NCBI RefSeq assembly: GCF_027595985.1
Contig: NC_073303.1
Coordinates: forward strand, 26,278,565-26,342,564
Reading direction: 5' to 3'
Length of the DNA: 64,000 nt
Source: Sorex araneus
Lineage: Eukaryota; Chordata; Mammalia; Eulipotyphla; Soricidae
The notes beneath the pieces were generated by a model. It saw nothing but the letters and a program-made list of their open reading frames with translations. It did no database searches and had not been told where the DNA came from. Both the position numbers and the translations under genes were made by a program. Position 1 is the stretch's first letter. Each line of letters begins with the position of its first letter. Shown here one piece after another: positions 12,096 through 60,502 of the stretch.

Positions 12096-12306
12096 AAATA
12101 GGAAAAGACGCTCAAACAAGAGGCTTTATAGGGAGCTTTCTGCCAACCTTTTCTTCCCCTGAGAGCTCCACTGAGGTAACAGAGACATTAGTCTTAACCC
12201 AAAGTAATTTCATTCTCATAGTAATTAATATTTTCACTCCAGCTCATCAGTATTTGTGGGAAAGTGCAGTGTGGTTGAGAATTCTGTCTCATCCTTGTAC
12301 GGTGCT

Positions 12307-12397
12307 ACCAAGCTCCTTTATCCTCAAATTCTTCCAAGCATTTTGTTTTTTTTTACCAAGCTCCTTTATCCTCAAATTCTTCCGAGCTTTTTTTTTT
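12307..12397. repeat. 48-bp tandem duplication
   Basis: ACCAAGCTCCTTTATCCTCA followed by AATTCTTCC(A/G)AGC and T-rich sequence occurs at 12307 and again at 12355. The second copy abuts the poly(T) side of the SINE at 12388. Confidence 0.9.
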
Positions 12398-12547
12398 TGG
12401 ATCACACCCCGAGATGCTCAGAGGTTACTTCTGGCTCTGCACTCAGGAATTACTCCTGGCACTGCTTGGGGACCATATGGGATGCTGAACCCAGGTTGGC
12501 TGCGTGCAAGGCAAACACCCTCCCCACTGTACTATCATCCAGCCCCT
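12388..12547 (-). mobile_element. SOR-type SINE
   Basis: TTTTTTTTGGATCACACCCC to ACTATCATCCAGCCCC, with a small deletion around the B box. Possible short target duplication TCTTC(C/T)GAG. Confidence 0.9.
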
Positions 12548-41809: not shown

Positions 41810-42519
41810 CCCTGACAAAGCGCCCCCCCTCCCCATCCTTCCTCCAAATCCCCACGGCGCGACCTTTCCCCCCATCCCCGCGGCCCGGGATTAAAGTGTT
41901 TATGCAAACTGCAGACCTGGGGGAAAGTTTCCGCGCCCGCCCCAAGCGAGGCTCGGCGCAGCTTTGTCTCTGCGGGAGCTCCCGCCCCCCAGGGTGCCTG
42001 CGCCACCGCACACCCGAATCCAGCGGGGTCCGCGGCGGCGAGGTGGGCGCACCCCTCCGCACGAGAGGGGGGCTGCCGGGGGGAGCCCCGGGCGGCGAGA
42101 CACCCCGAGCCGCCGGGAACAGACACAACAAAAGCCGGGTCCCGCCGGGCCCCGCGGGAGGCTCCGAGTTTCCCCGCGGACACCCGAGCGGGCGCGTTTC
42201 CCGCGGGGGGCGCGGACGGACGCGCGGTGCGTCGGGACCCCCCGCTCCGGGCTGGCCGCCGCGCCGCGACAGCTGGCACCCCGGGGCGGGCCGGGGTGCC
42301 GCCGCGCGCTGCCATGCGGCGGAGGCTGCCACCTGGGCACTCCCACCATTCTTCGCCGCCGGGAGGGCACGCGGGGCGAGGGGGATCCCCGCCGCCGCCC
42401 CGCCCGCCGCTCCCCCGGGCCCCGACGGCGCCGCCGACCCCCCGAGACGCGCGGAGGAGCCCAGGGGGCGCGGAGGGGGCGCCCCCGGACGGCGGCCCGG
42501 CCCCCCGCGCGGTACCCAC

Positions 42520-42725
42520 CTGAGCAGACTGGAGAGAGGGTGGCTGGAGGATCCCAGGCCGCCGCCGCCGCCGCCGCCCCCTGAGCCGCCGCCGCCGCCC
42601 CCCGAGCCGCCGCCGCCGCCGCCGCCCCCGAAGCCTGAGGAGAGCCGCTTCCCGGACAGGAGCTTCTCCACAGCCGGGAGGTGCCCGGTGCGGGCCGCCT
42701 CCAGCAGCTCCTGCTCCTTCCCCAT
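42520..42725 (-). CDS. ANKS1A: ANKS1A coding exon 1 (partial gene)
   Basis: Exon 1 of ankyrin repeat and SAM domain-containing protein 1A (ODIN), a cytoplasmic adaptor of EphA receptors and receptor tyrosine kinase trafficking with ankyrin repeats, two SAM domains and a PTB domain. The ATG is at 42725-42723 in the context GGGG-ATG-GGGAAG. The 68 encoded residues start [20 protein letters not shown], the first ankyrin-type helix pair, then [13 protein letters not shown] low-complexity tract (residues 33-56) reads Gly8-Ser-Gly6-Ser-Gly8, followed by [12 protein letters not shown]. The exon ends CTGCTCAG, followed by the donor GTGGGT, leaving 2 nt of a split serine/arginine codon, as in the human gene. 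Upstream codons are open for another 58 residues, but I chose this ATG because it matches known ANKS1A proteins. The remaining exons lie outside the window to the left. Confidence 0.96.
42558..42629 (-). repeat. GGC trinucleotide tracts coding polyglycine in ANKS1A
   Basis: Three runs of GGN codons, mostly GGC, separated by serine codons (Gly8-Ser-Gly6-Ser-Gly8). On the plus strand they read as GCC/CCG runs. Such GC-rich triplet tracts are prone to length change. The same tract with slightly different run lengths exists in human ANKS1A, so it is an old feature of the gene. Confidence 0.9.
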
Positions 42726-50500: not shown

Positions 50501-52838
50501 TTCCCAGTTCTCCAAAACAGGTGTTCATGTCTCTGTGTTCGCCCATCTCACTAAACTAACACTCATTTTTAATAATTGATTTATAGAAATGATATTTTAT
50601 AAAAATGATTTATGTTTCAATCATTTTCTTTAGTTGATACTAATCTATTTTTTTCCTTGTGTTTTTTGTTTTTTGATTGATTTGGGGCTGGGAAGATAGG
50701 AGTGCCAAAGTGGTACTTTAGGGAGCTCATGGGCCATTCCTGATGATGCCTGGCTAAGAGAACGGGCATCAATGTGATGACCATCTGGATTACTTGGTCC
50801 ATTCTGGTGGCAAGATTGTAGGGCCTCCAAGAGGTACACCTGGTGACACTTGGGGCACCACATGGTATCAGGGTGAGCCGCTGTACTATCTCCAGCCCTT
50901 TTTTCCTGGATCTTTATTGGCCATCGGTACCTGAATCTTTCTGTTCATATCATTTATTTGCTAAAACTGGCATGACTATCTTTTTAGAGGATTATATGTT
51001 ATTAGTATTAACTTTTTTCCATATATTTTATAAATGTTGTCCCCTAAATTTGTTCATGTTTAAGACTGCTTTGAACATAAGTTTATATATTAAATTTTTA
51101 GCATCAATGTGAAGAGTAGTAAGAGTCATGAAGAGAGGCTAATATGATAAACAGTGTTGTACATCGACCCAATTTTAAGCTTTTGTTCTTGTTTTTTTTT
51201 TTCTTTTTGGGTCACACCTGGCAATGCATAGGGGTTACTCCTGGCTCTGCACTCAGGAATTACTCTGGCGGTGCTCAGGGGACCATATGGGATGCTGGGA
51301 ATCGAATCTGGGTTGGCCGAGTGCAAGACTAACGCCCTACCTGCTGTGCTATTGCTCCAGCCCTAAGCTTTTGTTCTTGATGGAGAAAATGGTGTTTCAC
51401 TTTTTCTTTAGTTCTTCATAAGATCTAGACTATTCCTAATTGAATCCCTAAAAGATAATTTCCTAATTGCCTGAGACTCACTTGTATTGACAAAATAACA
51501 TAGCTTAAGCACCAGCCAACTTAATTATCTGCATCTTTGTCTAGGATCCTGGTTTCTTCTTTTTCTGAGGAACAGCTGAACCGTTATGAAATGTACCGCA
51601 GGTCAGCTTTCCCTAAGGCGGCCATTAAAAGGGTAAGGATGCACTGGGCTTCATTGCCATCACATACGAGAACTGAACTGTAATTAGAAGAGCAACGTGC
51701 TTTGGTATTTTGAAGTCAGATATTATGCAAATGGGTTTGGTTTTGTGTGCGTGCCATGGGGGATGGGGAGCCCGGGAGTGCAGGTTTGACGGCATCAGGG
51801 ATCAAACCCAAAGTTTCATGTAAGCGAAACGCATACTCTGCCTCTGAGCTAGATCCCTGGCTGATTTGGGTGCATTATTTAGGCAGGGAAATAAAAATAG
51901 CCATCTGAATGATTTGGCCCAGTTTTGGGTTTGTATTCTGAGTTAGAGTCTCAGCTTATATAGTTCCTGACACATCTGAATCCATGTTTTAAAGGTCTCA
52001 ATTTCAACACCTAGCCTTAGTAAACTCTTTCAGTGCAATCCTTTATGAGTGCATGTTCCCAAACCAGGCCTTGACTATCTTCACCTCTCTTTCTCCCTGC
52101 TCTCAGTTGATCCAGTCCATCACTGGCACCTCTGTGTCTCAGAATGTCGTGATCGCAATGTCTGGTATTTCCAAGGTTTTCGTCGGGGAGGTAGTCGAAG
52201 AAGGTGAGTATTAATGGTCCAGATACTAGCCTGACCATCCAGGGGTCTGGTTTTCAGACATGCCTGCCCTGGACTTATTGAGGCACCTGTGGGCGTCAGT
52301 CTCCATTTGCATTAGTGGTTGGCCAAGTGGGGACCAGGATCCTTGTATTTGGGGAGCAGGATCATTAATTCCACACAATAAAATTACAGTTAAGCTGCCA
52401 CTGAGGCCTGCCATTGTGGTGTAGTGGAGCTGATCCCAAGGCCACGGGTCCAGTTCCTGTTCTTAAGTAGAAGTGTTTTTCTTGGTAAAGCCTGTTGTGG
52501 GTATGACACCACAGCTACAGTGTGTCTGCCGCATCACAGGACAGCCAGGATACATTTTATAGCCTATTAAGGAAAGTGCCTTAGTTTATTACCCTCGCAA
52601 ATTAAGAGCAGCTGCCTAGAGAAGCGCAGGTGTCAAAAGGATGCTGTAAATCACAAGCTCTTCTGTGACCAAATACACTTTCTCCTTGCCCCTCCTCCCC
52701 CATTTAGCACTGGACGTGTGTGAGAAGTGGGGAGAAATGCCACCCCTGCAGCCCAAGCACATGCGGGAGGCTGTTCGGAGACTCAAGTCGAAAGGGCAGA
52801 TCCCTAACTCGAAACACAAGAAAATCATCTTCTTCTAG
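44362..52838 (+). CDS. TAF11: TAF11, TFIID subunit 11 (complete, 5 coding exons)
   Basis: TBP-associated factor 11 (TAFII28) is a nuclear TFIID subunit. It forms a histone-fold heterodimer with TAF13 that contacts TBP. Joined coding segments are 44362-44535, 46929-47077, 51545-51632, 52107-52203 and 52708-52838: 639 nt, 212 residues plus TAG, compared with 211 in human. Residues 1-58 are acidic and Ala-rich and diverged from human. Residues about 59-108 hold a lysine-rich stretch ([20 protein letters not shown]). Residues about 112-200 are the histone-fold domain, starting [20 protein letters not shown] and essentially identical to human, and the protein ends SKHKKIIFF. All introns are GT-AG, and the reading frame is open across every junction. 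Introns are about 2.4, 4.5, 0.5 and 0.5 kb. There is no sign of a processed copy: this is the functional gene. Confidence 0.98.
44770..44940 (+). mobile_element. Degenerate SINE just downstream of TAF11 exon 1
   Basis: CTGTCTGGTCAGTCCCCGGC, CACCCCAGCCCAGCCGGAGT and GGTGTCGCCCCCAAACAAAA keep the SINE order at the edge of the CpG island. Confidence 0.55.
45283..45436 (+). mobile_element. SOR-type SINE
   Basis: GGGGCTGGGACAATAGTTGA to GGGGTGTGGCCCCCAAAAAA, with a body deletion. Confidence 0.9.
45570..45771 (-). mobile_element. Composite SINE (second family), 5'-truncated
   Basis: CACTGTAGCACTGTCGTCCA to AATTAAACCCAGGTCGATA. Target duplication GCAAACATTAG at 45559-45569 and 45772-45782. The head beyond the B box is missing. 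Confidence 0.92.
45803..45935 (+). mobile_element. Older SOR-type SINE
   Basis: GGGGCCAGAGCGATAGTATA to CTGTGCCCCTCCCCC, internally deleted. Confidence 0.8.
46172..46345 (+). mobile_element. SOR-type SINE
   Basis: AGGCTGGAGAGATAATACAG to GGGGTGATCCCTCCCAAATT. Confidence 0.9.
46543..46716 (-). mobile_element. SOR-type SINE
   Basis: TTTTTTTTTGGAGGGGGGCC to GCTATTACTCCAGCCCCC; about 210 bp upstream of TAF11 exon 2. Confidence 0.9.
46929..47077 (+). CDS. TAF11: TAF11 coding exon 2
   Basis: The acceptor TTTTCTCAG is followed by CTCAAGAGTCAGG, coding [16 protein letters not shown], and then the basic [16 protein letters not shown] stretch, a probable nuclear localisation signal. It ends AAGATGCA before the donor GTAAGT, splitting a glutamine codon. 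Length 149 nt. Confidence 0.95.
47183..47354 (+). mobile_element. SOR-type SINE
   Basis: GGGGCCGGAGAAATGGTACA to GTGTGACCCAAAAAGAAAAA; flanks share AAAATATA(A/G)AT. Confidence 0.92.
47614..47712 (+). pseudogene. U6 snRNA retropseudogene (full-length, degenerate)
   Basis: Matches U6 snRNA from GTGCTTGCTTCAGCAG to the 3' end, including the intact core CCCCTGCGCAAGGATGACAC, but with many substitutions and small deletions, for example the ACATATACTAAAATT region. It lies in TAF11 intron 2 and is flanked by a direct repeat AAAT(A/G)CAAATAGT (47597-47609 and 47740-47752), with an A-rich tail between the U6 end and the second repeat. That marks an L1-type retrotransposed copy. No promoter (PSE/TATA) is expected or seen, so it is not functional. 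Confidence 0.92.
47753..47895 (+). mobile_element. Older SOR-type SINE
   Basis: AACAGGAGAGATAGTACAGC to CAGATATGGGCCAAAATCC, next to the U6 pseudogene. Confidence 0.8.
47915..48010 (+). mobile_element. Degenerate SINE
   Basis: GGGACTGGAGTTGTAACACA to GCATCACTGGGTGTGGCG. Confidence 0.6.
48243..48413 (-). mobile_element. SOR-type SINE
   Basis: TTTCTTTTTCGGTCACACCT to ACTGTATGACTCCAGCCCC. Confidence 0.92.
48444..49870 (-). mobile_element. L1 LINE 3' end (ORF2 C-terminus and 3' UTR), interrupted by a SINE
   Basis: Minus-strand L1 remnant in TAF11 intron 2. The plus strand starts with a poly(T) tail, then the L1 3' UTR (reverse complement of GGGTGTTGGAACTCTGTATG), then ORF2 C-terminal sequence. 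In broken frames the minus strand codes [20 protein letters not shown] and [11 protein letters not shown], matching the conserved L1 ORF2 C-terminal region (REMQIKTTMRYHLTP and RGCGEIGTLLH in human L1). Frameshifts make it inactive. It is split at 49613-49796 by a SINE. Confidence 0.9.
49613..49796 (-). mobile_element. SOR-type SINE inserted into L1
   Basis: Full-length minus-strand copy, from T-rich tail to GCTATTGCTCCAGCCCC. The target site is duplicated: CCTTGAAGATGA(T/C)TTT occurs on both sides and belongs to the L1 sequence, so the SINE is younger than the L1. Confidence 0.92.
50008..50165 (-). mobile_element. Degenerate SOR-type SINE
   Basis: GAGCCCACACGTGGCAGTGC to TTTGTGGATCTCCCCCGGCC. 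Confidence 0.7.
50684..50900. mobile_element. Degenerate SINE pair
   Basis: Plus-like start TGGGGCTGGGAAGATAGGAG (50684) and minus-like end TGGTATCAGGGTGAGCCGCT... TACTATCTCCAGCCC (50860-50899). Confidence 0.45.
51191..51363 (-). mobile_element. SOR-type SINE
   Basis: Young copy; target duplication TAAGCTTTTGTTCTTG at 51177-51192 and 51365-51380. About 180 bp upstream of TAF11 exon 3. Confidence 0.95.
51545..51632 (+). CDS. TAF11: TAF11 coding exon 3
   Basis: An 88-nt exon after acceptor TTTGTCTAG, coding [20 protein letters not shown] and then AFPKAAIKR, the first helix of the histone fold. The donor is AGG|GTAAGG. The protein is identical to human as far as I know it. Confidence 0.95.
51742..51882 (-). 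mobile_element. Degenerate SINE
   Basis: GGCATCAGGGATCAAACCCA and CTCTGAGCTAGATCCCTGGC, an ID-like minus head. Confidence 0.55.
52107..52203 (+). CDS. TAF11: TAF11 coding exon 4
   Basis: A 97-nt exon after a polypyrimidine-CTCTCAG acceptor, coding [20 protein letters not shown] followed by [12 protein letters not shown], the long central helix of the histone fold. Donor GAAGAAG|GTGAGTA. Confidence 0.95.
52708..52838 (+). CDS. TAF11: TAF11 coding exon 5 (terminal)
   Basis: Acceptor CCATTTAG, then [20 protein letters not shown] and [23 protein letters not shown] followed by TAG at 52836-52838. This is the C-terminal part of the histone fold plus the conserved basic tail. Confidence 0.95.
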
Positions 52839-58476: not shown

Positions 58477-60502
58477 CTGAGGGACAGCAAGTAATTCACA
58501 GCTGATGAAAACATCCAGTAAAGGAACAAAGGAAAACTTTTAAGCAGAAAAATGCACAAGTTGGTCAATGATCAAGAGAAACCAGACGGGGCAGGAGGAC
58601 AGTTTAGTGACTTAGGTGCTTGTCTGGCAAATGCACAGTCAAGAGTTCAAATCCCAGGGCTGGAGCGATAGCATAGCAGGTAGGACATTTGCCTTGCGGC
58701 TGACCCAGGTTCGATTCCCAGCATCCCAGATGGTCCCCCGAGCACCACCAGGAGTAATTCCTGAATGTAAAGCCAGGAGTAACCCCTGTGCATTTCTGGG
58801 TGTGACCCAAAAAGCAAAAAAAAAAAAAAAAAAGTTCAAATCCCCATGCTGCCACCTGCATGGAAGTGGCTGACAGGGATCCCCAGGAACGAAGTGCCCA
58901 GAAGATGCTCCATGGCTTAGAAAGCGCCCGGGGTGAGTGTGAGGGCCTGAGCTTAGTCCTTAATACCACCATGCCCGTGCCAAGGTGATCCCGACCACCC
59001 AGTCTAGGGTCGCAGTCAGGGGTGAAAAAACAAGCGATTCCAACCAGACCGCCAGGAAGCTCGAGACCCCTCTTTTGGCTGACGGTCACGGGACAGCAGT
59101 CTCAGGATGGGAAGCAGTAACCTTTACCCGACGCCTCCTTGGTTGCCCCTCAATTTCTAGAAGCTGTGCTCTGGTAAAGGGGCCCAGACCACCAACGGCA
59201 CACGGCACACACAATCTTAGCAACTGAGGCCTTTCGGCGTGTGAACTGTGAGCATCAGAGGTTTATCGGGAAGAGACTGTTCAGGCCGCTCCTTACCTGC
59301 TCTCCAAAAGCCTCCCTCGTAGGCACCAAAAACACCTGTTCCTCTGGGACCTGCCGCTCCTCACTTTTAGGTGCTTCAGCAGACGGTCTGTCCTGAGCAG
59401 CAGCTGCAGAGAAAAGTCAAGGTTCTCAATGTCCAAGTGCTGCCCACGGACGAGCAACTTCCGCCTGTCACCTGGTCCCTTGCAGGAGAAAAGAGCGACC
59501 GGCCCCCTCACCTCCTACGTGGCACACGCTGTCGTCCTTCCGCTCTCGACCGGCCCCCTCACCTCCTATGTGGAACACGCCATCGTCCTTCCGCTCCAGC
59601 ACAACATGCTCCATGGCCACGGTGATAGGGACAGGACCGGGAGACGTGGGATAGATGGGGGGGATGTCATCCTGCAAGACAAAGGGGAGGCAACATCATG
59701 CCCCCAACAGCTCAGAACAACTGAGTTCACAATCCTGCTAAACACACTTTTTTTTTTTTTGGTTTTGGGGCCATACCCAGCAGTGCTCAGGGCTTCTCAC
59801 TCTGCATTTGGGACTCTCTCCTGGTGGTGGTCCGAGGACCACATGGGGAGCCAGTGAATAGAAGGTAGGTCAGCTAAGGCAAGTGCCCCACTTGCTGTAC
59901 TATCACTCTGGCCCCGAGAAGCATGTTTTATGTCACTGTTTGGCCAGCCATCGTGCTAAGTTCTGGTAACTCAGCCTCTCCCATTCTAGACAGGGTGAAA
60001 CCCAGGATCAAATAACTTAACAGACTGGCCTGGACAGGCCAGACTCAAGGTCCATTCCCCTGCATCCAGGACTTTCTGACAGCAGCATACATGGAACATA
60101 CCAACACCACCAAAGGCTCCTGCACTCCCCCCTTGGTTCTCACCACGTTCGCACAGAGACCGGGAAGAGGTCAGTGGCTGTCCCTGCCAGGACTTCTTGC
60201 CTGCCCAAGTCTAGGGTAAAAGCCCAAAGATCCTCTCACCTTCAAGGTGACCCTGGAGTCGAGGAGCTCAATCTTCATGGGAACTACCTCTGGGATCTCC
60301 TCATCTTCCAAGAAAGGCCCCAGGCCATTGAGCACCGAAGTCAGCAGCTCAAGGTCACAGCCACGAAGCAAGAGGTGCAGGAAGCCATTCTGGGTGGCCA
60401 GCGGGGAATGGACAGCTGCGCCAGGCCCCACCTCGAAACGAAGGCCCACGGCTGGTCTAAGGCGACTGGACTTCAAGACTGATGATTCTGCATAGGCCGT
60501 AT
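58351..60502 (-). CDS. BLTP3A: BLTP3A (UHRF1BP1), last four coding exons
   Basis: C-terminal part of bridge-like lipid transfer protein family member 3A (UHRF1-binding protein 1), a member of the repeating beta-groove (VPS13-like) lipid-transfer family working at organelle contact sites. Joined minus-strand segments are 60502-60240, 59671-59563, 59403-59297 and 58476-58351. They give DTAYAESSVLKSSRLRPAVG through the DDIPPIYPTSPGP segment and the AAAQDRPSAEAPKSEERQVP segment, to a terminal coiled coil ELPTLQKELADTRAALASAN ending in KYNPLFEL and TGA. Human ends KYNPFFEL. Exon phases join without frameshift and all splice sites are GT-AG. The preceding exons lie beyond position 64000. One exon carries a duplicated splice donor (see findings). 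Confidence 0.97.
58596..58980 (+). mobile_element. Older SINE split by a younger SINE
   Basis: 58596-58656 (GGGGCAGGAGGACAGTTTAG... GAGTTCAAATCCC) continues after the insertion at 58833 (TTCAAATCCCCATGCTGCCA). Confidence 0.65.
58657..58832 (+). mobile_element. Young SOR-type SINE
   Basis: AGGGCTGGAGCGATAGCATA to A18; target duplication AGTTCAAATCCC on both sides. It lies between the last two BLTP3A exons. Confidence 0.94.
59297..59403 (-). CDS. BLTP3A: BLTP3A second-last coding exon
   Basis: 107 nt between acceptor CTCTGCAG and donor GAGCAG|GTAAGG. It codes AAAQDRPSAEAPKSEERQVP, then EEQVFLVPTREAFGEQ. It corresponds to human AAQDKPSAEV through VFLVPTGEVFEQQ. The segment is hydrophilic and probably a linker before the terminal coiled coil. 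Confidence 0.94.
59497..59598. repeat. 51-bp tandem duplication spanning a BLTP3A splice donor
   Basis: Two copies with a period of exactly 51 bp (59497-59547 and 59548-59598), differing at about six positions. Each contains the exon end ERKDD(G/S)V(F/C)H(I/V)G followed by donor GTGAGGGGG. The copy nearer the upstream exon is the ancestral-looking one, because its peptide matches mammalian proteins. Confidence 0.93.
59563..59671 (-). CDS. BLTP3A: BLTP3A third-last coding exon (proximal donor form)
   Basis: 109 nt from acceptor CTTGCAG to donor ATAGGAG|GTGAGG. It codes DDIPPIYPTSPGPVPITVAM, then EHVVLERKDDGVFHIG and the first base of the next codon. With this donor the protein continues into AAAQDRPSAE as in human. 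A second, almost identical donor lies 51 nt downstream at 59512, and the reading frame stays open to it. Confidence 0.92.
59757..59917 (-). mobile_element. Older SOR-type SINE
   Basis: TTTTGGTTTTGGGGCCATAC to CTGTACTATCACTCTGGCCCC. Confidence 0.88.
60240..60502 (-). CDS. BLTP3A: BLTP3A fourth-last coding exon
   Basis: 263 nt between acceptor TTCTCAAAG and donor CTTGAAG|GTGAGAGG. It codes (D)TAYAESSVLKSSRLRPAVG, then GLRFEVGPGAAVHSPLATQN, GFLHLLLRGCDLELLTSVLN and the EIPEVVPMKIELLDSRVTLK segment, a beta-rich stretch of the C-terminal lipid-transfer region that is nearly identical to human. Confidence 0.95.

Follow-up and report, generated by a model that had tools for sequence, protein, structure and literature searches.

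A diverged 51-bp tandem duplication copies an exon end and its splice donor in shrew BLTP3A

The 64-kb window, the whole stretch of Sorex araneus DNA analysed here, contains four successive minus-strand exons of BLTP3A (Table 1), which are flanked by AG acceptors and, in the first three, by GT donors. The joined exons form a single reading frame terminating in NPLFEL and a stop codon. The 201-residue C-terminal part is matched by Pfam PF24917 (BLTP3A_B) with 218.3 bits against a cut-off of 24, and this family takes in both BLTP3A and BLTP3B. In tblastn searches with human protein pieces, TAF11 is located at 51576-52835 on the plus strand (three stretches, 91-100%) and the first exon of ANKS1A at 42725-42642 on the minus strand (100% over 28 aa); a piece of SNRPC found no match by tblastn in the 64-kb window. 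Because TAF11 and ANKS1A fit the human gene order, in which we take both to be neighbours of BLTP3A (UHRF1BP1), the gene is assigned to BLTP3A and not to BLTP3B. The family match and these two neighbours support the gene identity proposed by the initial annotation. The first exon of ANKS1A (42500-42725, minus strand) also carries a GC-rich tandem repeat at 42564-42620 (21-bp unit, 97% matches), which encodes a long glycine-serine run.

Table 1. Positions in the window of the BLTP3A exons, repeat copies and donors
Feature	Position	Strand	Basis
Preceding BLTP3A exon	60240..60502	-	frame join
BLTP3A exon ending at donor 1 (short form; 109 nt; corresponds to human residues 1328-1363)	59563..59671	-	
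BLTP3A exon, putative long form (donor 2), 160 nt, +17 in-frame codons	59512..59671	-	sequence
Copy 1: exon end, donor 1, 16 nt beyond	59547..59597	-	repeat finders, direct comparison
GT of donor 1, 9-mer GAG/GTGAGG	59561..59562	-	sequence, matrix score
Copy 2: exon end (diverged), donor 2 and 16 nt beyond	59496..59546	-	repeat finders, direct comparison
GT of donor 2, 9-mer identical to donor 1	59510..59511	-	sequence, matrix score
Next BLTP3A exon, linker to C-terminal helix; same phase from both donors	59297..59403	-	
Final coding exon of BLTP3A, with the C-terminal helix and the stop codon	58351..58476	-	

At the end of the second of these exons, a 51-bp unit is repeated head to tail on the minus strand, and 46 of the 51 bases are identical between the two copies. 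Tandem Repeats Finder reports the repeat at 59496-59596 (period 51, 2.0 copies, 92% matches) with a score of 174, the highest among its 31 rows for the 64-kb window, and a repeat search finds two 50-nt copies with 92% identity at a spacing of 51. By direct comparison, the five mismatches are located at unit positions 0, 15, 16, 23 and 28 (0-based), all of them in the 35 nt that are exonic in copy 1; four fall within the 50-nt match and the fifth is the junction base. The final 22 nt, TAGGAG followed by GTGAGGGGGCCGGTCG (6 exon and 16 intron bases), are the same in both copies. When 14-mers of the two copies were searched across the window on both strands, none was found elsewhere, and chance similarity between the copies is excluded in practice. 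The head-to-tail duplication of a BLTP3A exon end and donor noted in the initial annotation is thus confirmed by the repeat finders and by direct comparison; its divergence also stands, whereas the count of differing sites is five and not about six. Another two-copy tandem duplication is present in the window at 12306-12398 (48-bp unit, 93% matches, score 161).

As a consequence of the duplication, the exon possesses two identical donors, with 59563 as the last exon base from donor 1 and 59512 from donor 2. Scored with a donor matrix, they are the two strongest GT sites in 59400-59700 (6.27, compared with 2.82 for the next), and a score of 6.27 is reached by only 5 of the 1079 minus-strand GT sites in 43000-64000, these two included. 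Use of donor 2 would append GEGAGRERKDDSVCHVG, which is 17 residues without a stop, and either donor leads in a common phase into the next exon, across an intron of 159 nt from donor 1 or 108 nt from donor 2 by the coordinates. The exon end, with two apparently competent in-frame donors and one downstream acceptor, therefore qualifies as a candidate alternative 5’ splice site. Identical donors, exon coordinates, 17 in-frame codons, absence of a stop and a common phase had all been described before and are correct by the sequence. Because an in-frame length arises by chance in about one case in three, the open frame would not in itself be evidence of selection.

To place the extra residues in the protein, the exon was compared with published human BLTP3A constructs. 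The C-terminal helix of the human protein spans residues 1394-1440, and a truncation to residues 1-1327 is reported to lose VAMP7-vesicle clustering while residues 1-1364 keep it (PMC12583604). Counting back the 77 residues of the short form, with 1440 taken as the last residue and no indel assumed within the last 113 residues, equates the shrew short-form exon with human residues 1328-1363. The exon is thereby predicted to coincide with the segment required for vesicle clustering, and this predicted placement, between the published truncation borders 1327 and 1364, is new. The extra 17 residues would directly follow the vesicle-clustering segment and open the linker to the C-terminal helix. 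They repeat ERKDDGVFHIG as ERKDDSVCHVG, and the insert appears to duplicate the last beta-strand in degenerate form.

Consistent with a conserved short form, the exon aligns to the PF24917 profile without gaps (profile positions 1293-1328). This alignment and the published construct borders support the earlier proposal that the upstream donor would give the usual mammalian protein. From the exon to the block matched next, 33 profile positions stand against 9 residues of the short form, and inclusion of the real insert raised the score from 218.3 to 232.2 bits. Three control inserts, two of them one residue longer, gave 226.1, 227.1 and 227.1 bits over the same baseline. Because the controls also raise the score, most of the gain of the real insert reflects tolerance of length at this site. 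The further 5 to 6 bits by which it exceeds these three controls could stem from some likeness to longer members of the family. Neither a 72-residue nor a 201-residue query matched a solved structure at E values up to 10.

The profile also distinguishes the two copies. With copy-1 residues the family score was 180.6 bits; exchange for the copy-2 residue lowered it to 177.3 in the case of G to S, to 176.5 for F to C and to 179.2 for I to V, and to 171.7 when all three were exchanged jointly, corresponding to changes of -3.3, -4.1, -1.4 and together -8.9 bits. Since each of the three changed residues of copy 2 lowers the score, copy 1 is judged from the profile to be the conserved copy that keeps the inherited protein, and copy 2 the one that has drifted. 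Three of the four differences within the 50-nt match alter a residue, as expected without constraint. The distance K between the copies is 0.085 (4/50) or 0.105 (5/51), which at substitution rates of 2.2-6e-9 per site per year corresponds to an age of about 7-24 My, with 95% limits of about 0 to 45 My that are too loose for placement on the shrew tree; the shrew family is reported to be about 30 My old (PMC11544316). We read this divergence of about 10% as that of an older local duplication, in agreement with the previous remark that the repeat is not brand new. The clustering of mismatches in the exon part was not significant (Fisher 0.17, 35 exon nt against 16 intron nt), and two splits chosen after seeing the data gave 0.06 (29/22 split) and 0.12. 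The unchanged surroundings of donor 2 hint that it was retained, though not at a significant level.

We favour, with a probability of roughly 0.6, the reading that an older duplication has been tolerated because the upstream donor still gives the usual protein, the putative +17 form being minor and near-neutral. Since donor 1 retains the original exon and frame, the duplication would have cost little and could have persisted. Donor 1 would supply the bulk of the mRNA by the first-come preference of equal tandem donors, and donor 2 at most a minor form whose 17 additional residues, probably a nearly neutral insert, would open the flexible linker that leads to the C-terminal helix. The identical donors, the gap-free fit of copy 1 in the family, the lower score of each copy-2 residue, the three residue-altering differences and the tolerance of length at the insert site argue for this reading. 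Against it stand the unchanged donor 2, the non-significant clustering of differences in the exon part, the 5 to 6 bits by which the insert exceeds the controls, and older experiments, which favour the intron-proximal of two donors. In a reporter library derived from 81 native tandem-donor contexts, the first donor was reported to be predominantly used when both matched the consensus; the same study mentions earlier conflicting evidence and attributes the rule-breaking cases to sequence distant from the site (PMC6783452). Predominant use of donor 1 in BLTP3A is expected because the order favours it, the immediate context being duplicated and only the outer flanks differing.

The main rival, possible though doubtful, is a lineage-specific isoform that is in actual use, with both donors, or mainly donor 2, being spliced. 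A substantial share of shrew BLTP3A would then have the last beta-strand a second time, next to the vesicle-binding segment, and altered reach or VAMP7-vesicle binding might follow. This rival gains from the equality of the donors, from the duplication of the full 51-nt neighbourhood including a purine-rich exon stretch, from two introns that are both workable in length, from an insert lying in frame directly after the vesicle-clustering segment, and from the 22 unchanged nt around donor 2. The intron-proximal preference in older experiments and the exceptions set by distant sequence in the reporters keep this alternative alive. By comparison, the upstream-first behaviour of the reporters (PMC6783452), the drift of copy 2, whose three changed residues each depart from the family profile, and the one-in-three chance of an in-frame length weigh against it. 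The alternative isoform put forward in the initial annotation accordingly stands as a candidate, whereas the first two of these points argue against its being predominant or under selection. Should the long form be produced, the protein would be altered directly beside the segment reported necessary for BLTP3A vesicle clustering. That selection has preserved donor 2 despite changes in its coding part, yielding a shrew BLTP3A with a repeated final beta-strand that is perhaps tissue-limited, is unlikely; if true, the selected isoform would mean that a bridge-like lipid transfer protein can be switchably altered at the end that faces the membrane.

An assembly artefact, with two haplotypes or a mis-joined read placed in tandem at a locus that is truly single-copy, is very unlikely. 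Nothing was seen in its favour, the flanks are unique, and the window holds no further copy. In addition, 5 differences in 51 bases would far exceed the usual allelic divergence, and at about 10% a false tandem of two alleles is improbable, which agrees with the earlier judgement that the repeat is no trivial assembly stutter. An incipient gain of an intron or recursive splicing, in which the 51 nt between the donors function as a very short intron or as a point of recursive splicing, is hardly credible, as 51 nt lie under the usual minimum length of mammalian introns. These 51 nt do start with GT and end with AG directly before donor 2, and AGGT is duplicated (GAG/GTG in both copies) as in the Rogers model (PMC4974935), but the bases preceding the second AG, GACGACAGCGTGTGCCACGTAGGAG, contain no pyrimidine tract, for which reason both AGGT intron gain and recursive splicing at the duplicated AG/GT were rejected.

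RNA structure as a donor switch was also set aside, since the donor folds are mostly no better than those of shuffles. Donor 2 pairs locally with a CU-rich stretch downstream (z -1.24; equalled or bettered by 24 of 200 shuffles), and within a 123-nt context this CU-rich stretch downstream of donor 2 is also open to pairing with donor 1. The remaining two folds did not surpass the shuffles (z 0.73 and 0.24). For the two donors, the unpaired probability is on average alike (about 0.21 and 0.18).

The BLTP3A repeat is of a known kind, an internal tandem duplication leading to a possible alternative 5’ splice site; internal gene duplications are called commonly observed (PMC4974935). Mammalian tandem 5’ splice sites, as reported for GYNGYN donors, STAT3 Ser-701 and glucocorticoid receptor gamma, likewise offer two in-frame donors that add or remove a few residues. 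Their donors lie a few bases apart, whereas in BLTP3A the whole donor and its context are copied 51 bp away and use of both is putative. The designed tandem-donor reporters place an identical donor at both positions, as in BLTP3A, and its 51-nt spacing falls within the 2-77 nt range of their RNA-seq-derived contexts (PMC6783452). BLTP3A differs from them in being natural and in frame and in having its flanking context duplicated as well. In the intron gains described by the Rogers model (ATP2A1 and potato RdRp; PMC4974935), an internal tandem duplication also copies splice signals; by comparison, that model yields a new intron, while the BLTP3A duplication doubles an existing donor and copies no acceptor with a pyrimidine tract. 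Among the matches listed from titles and abstract starts of the open-licence literature, none concerned this BLTP3A duplication and none a natural whole-donor tandem duplication in a mammal, which leaves absence from print unproven, and no BLTP3A title among those listed was on shrews. The available parts of PMC8724738 and PMC1877881 contain nothing that decides the BLTP3A case. The repeat reproduces in nature a standard design of splicing experiments, with identical donors and neighbourhoods 51 nt apart in an open frame, and the choice of donor in shrew RNA would show whether the first-come rule extends beyond reporters.

The repeat content of the window was compared with published oligonucleotides. 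None of 10 oligonucleotides for mouse, rabbit, vole, squirrel and cat repeats matches the window at up to two mismatches; at three mismatches, the vole F oligonucleotide has two matches and the squirrel R oligonucleotide one. A shrew SINE recurs many times in the window: three oligonucleotides for it (PMC8608897) match the window exactly 7, 6 and 1 times, and 20, 28 and 10 times at up to two mismatches. A shrew genome, at the level of the family, is supported by this SINE content.
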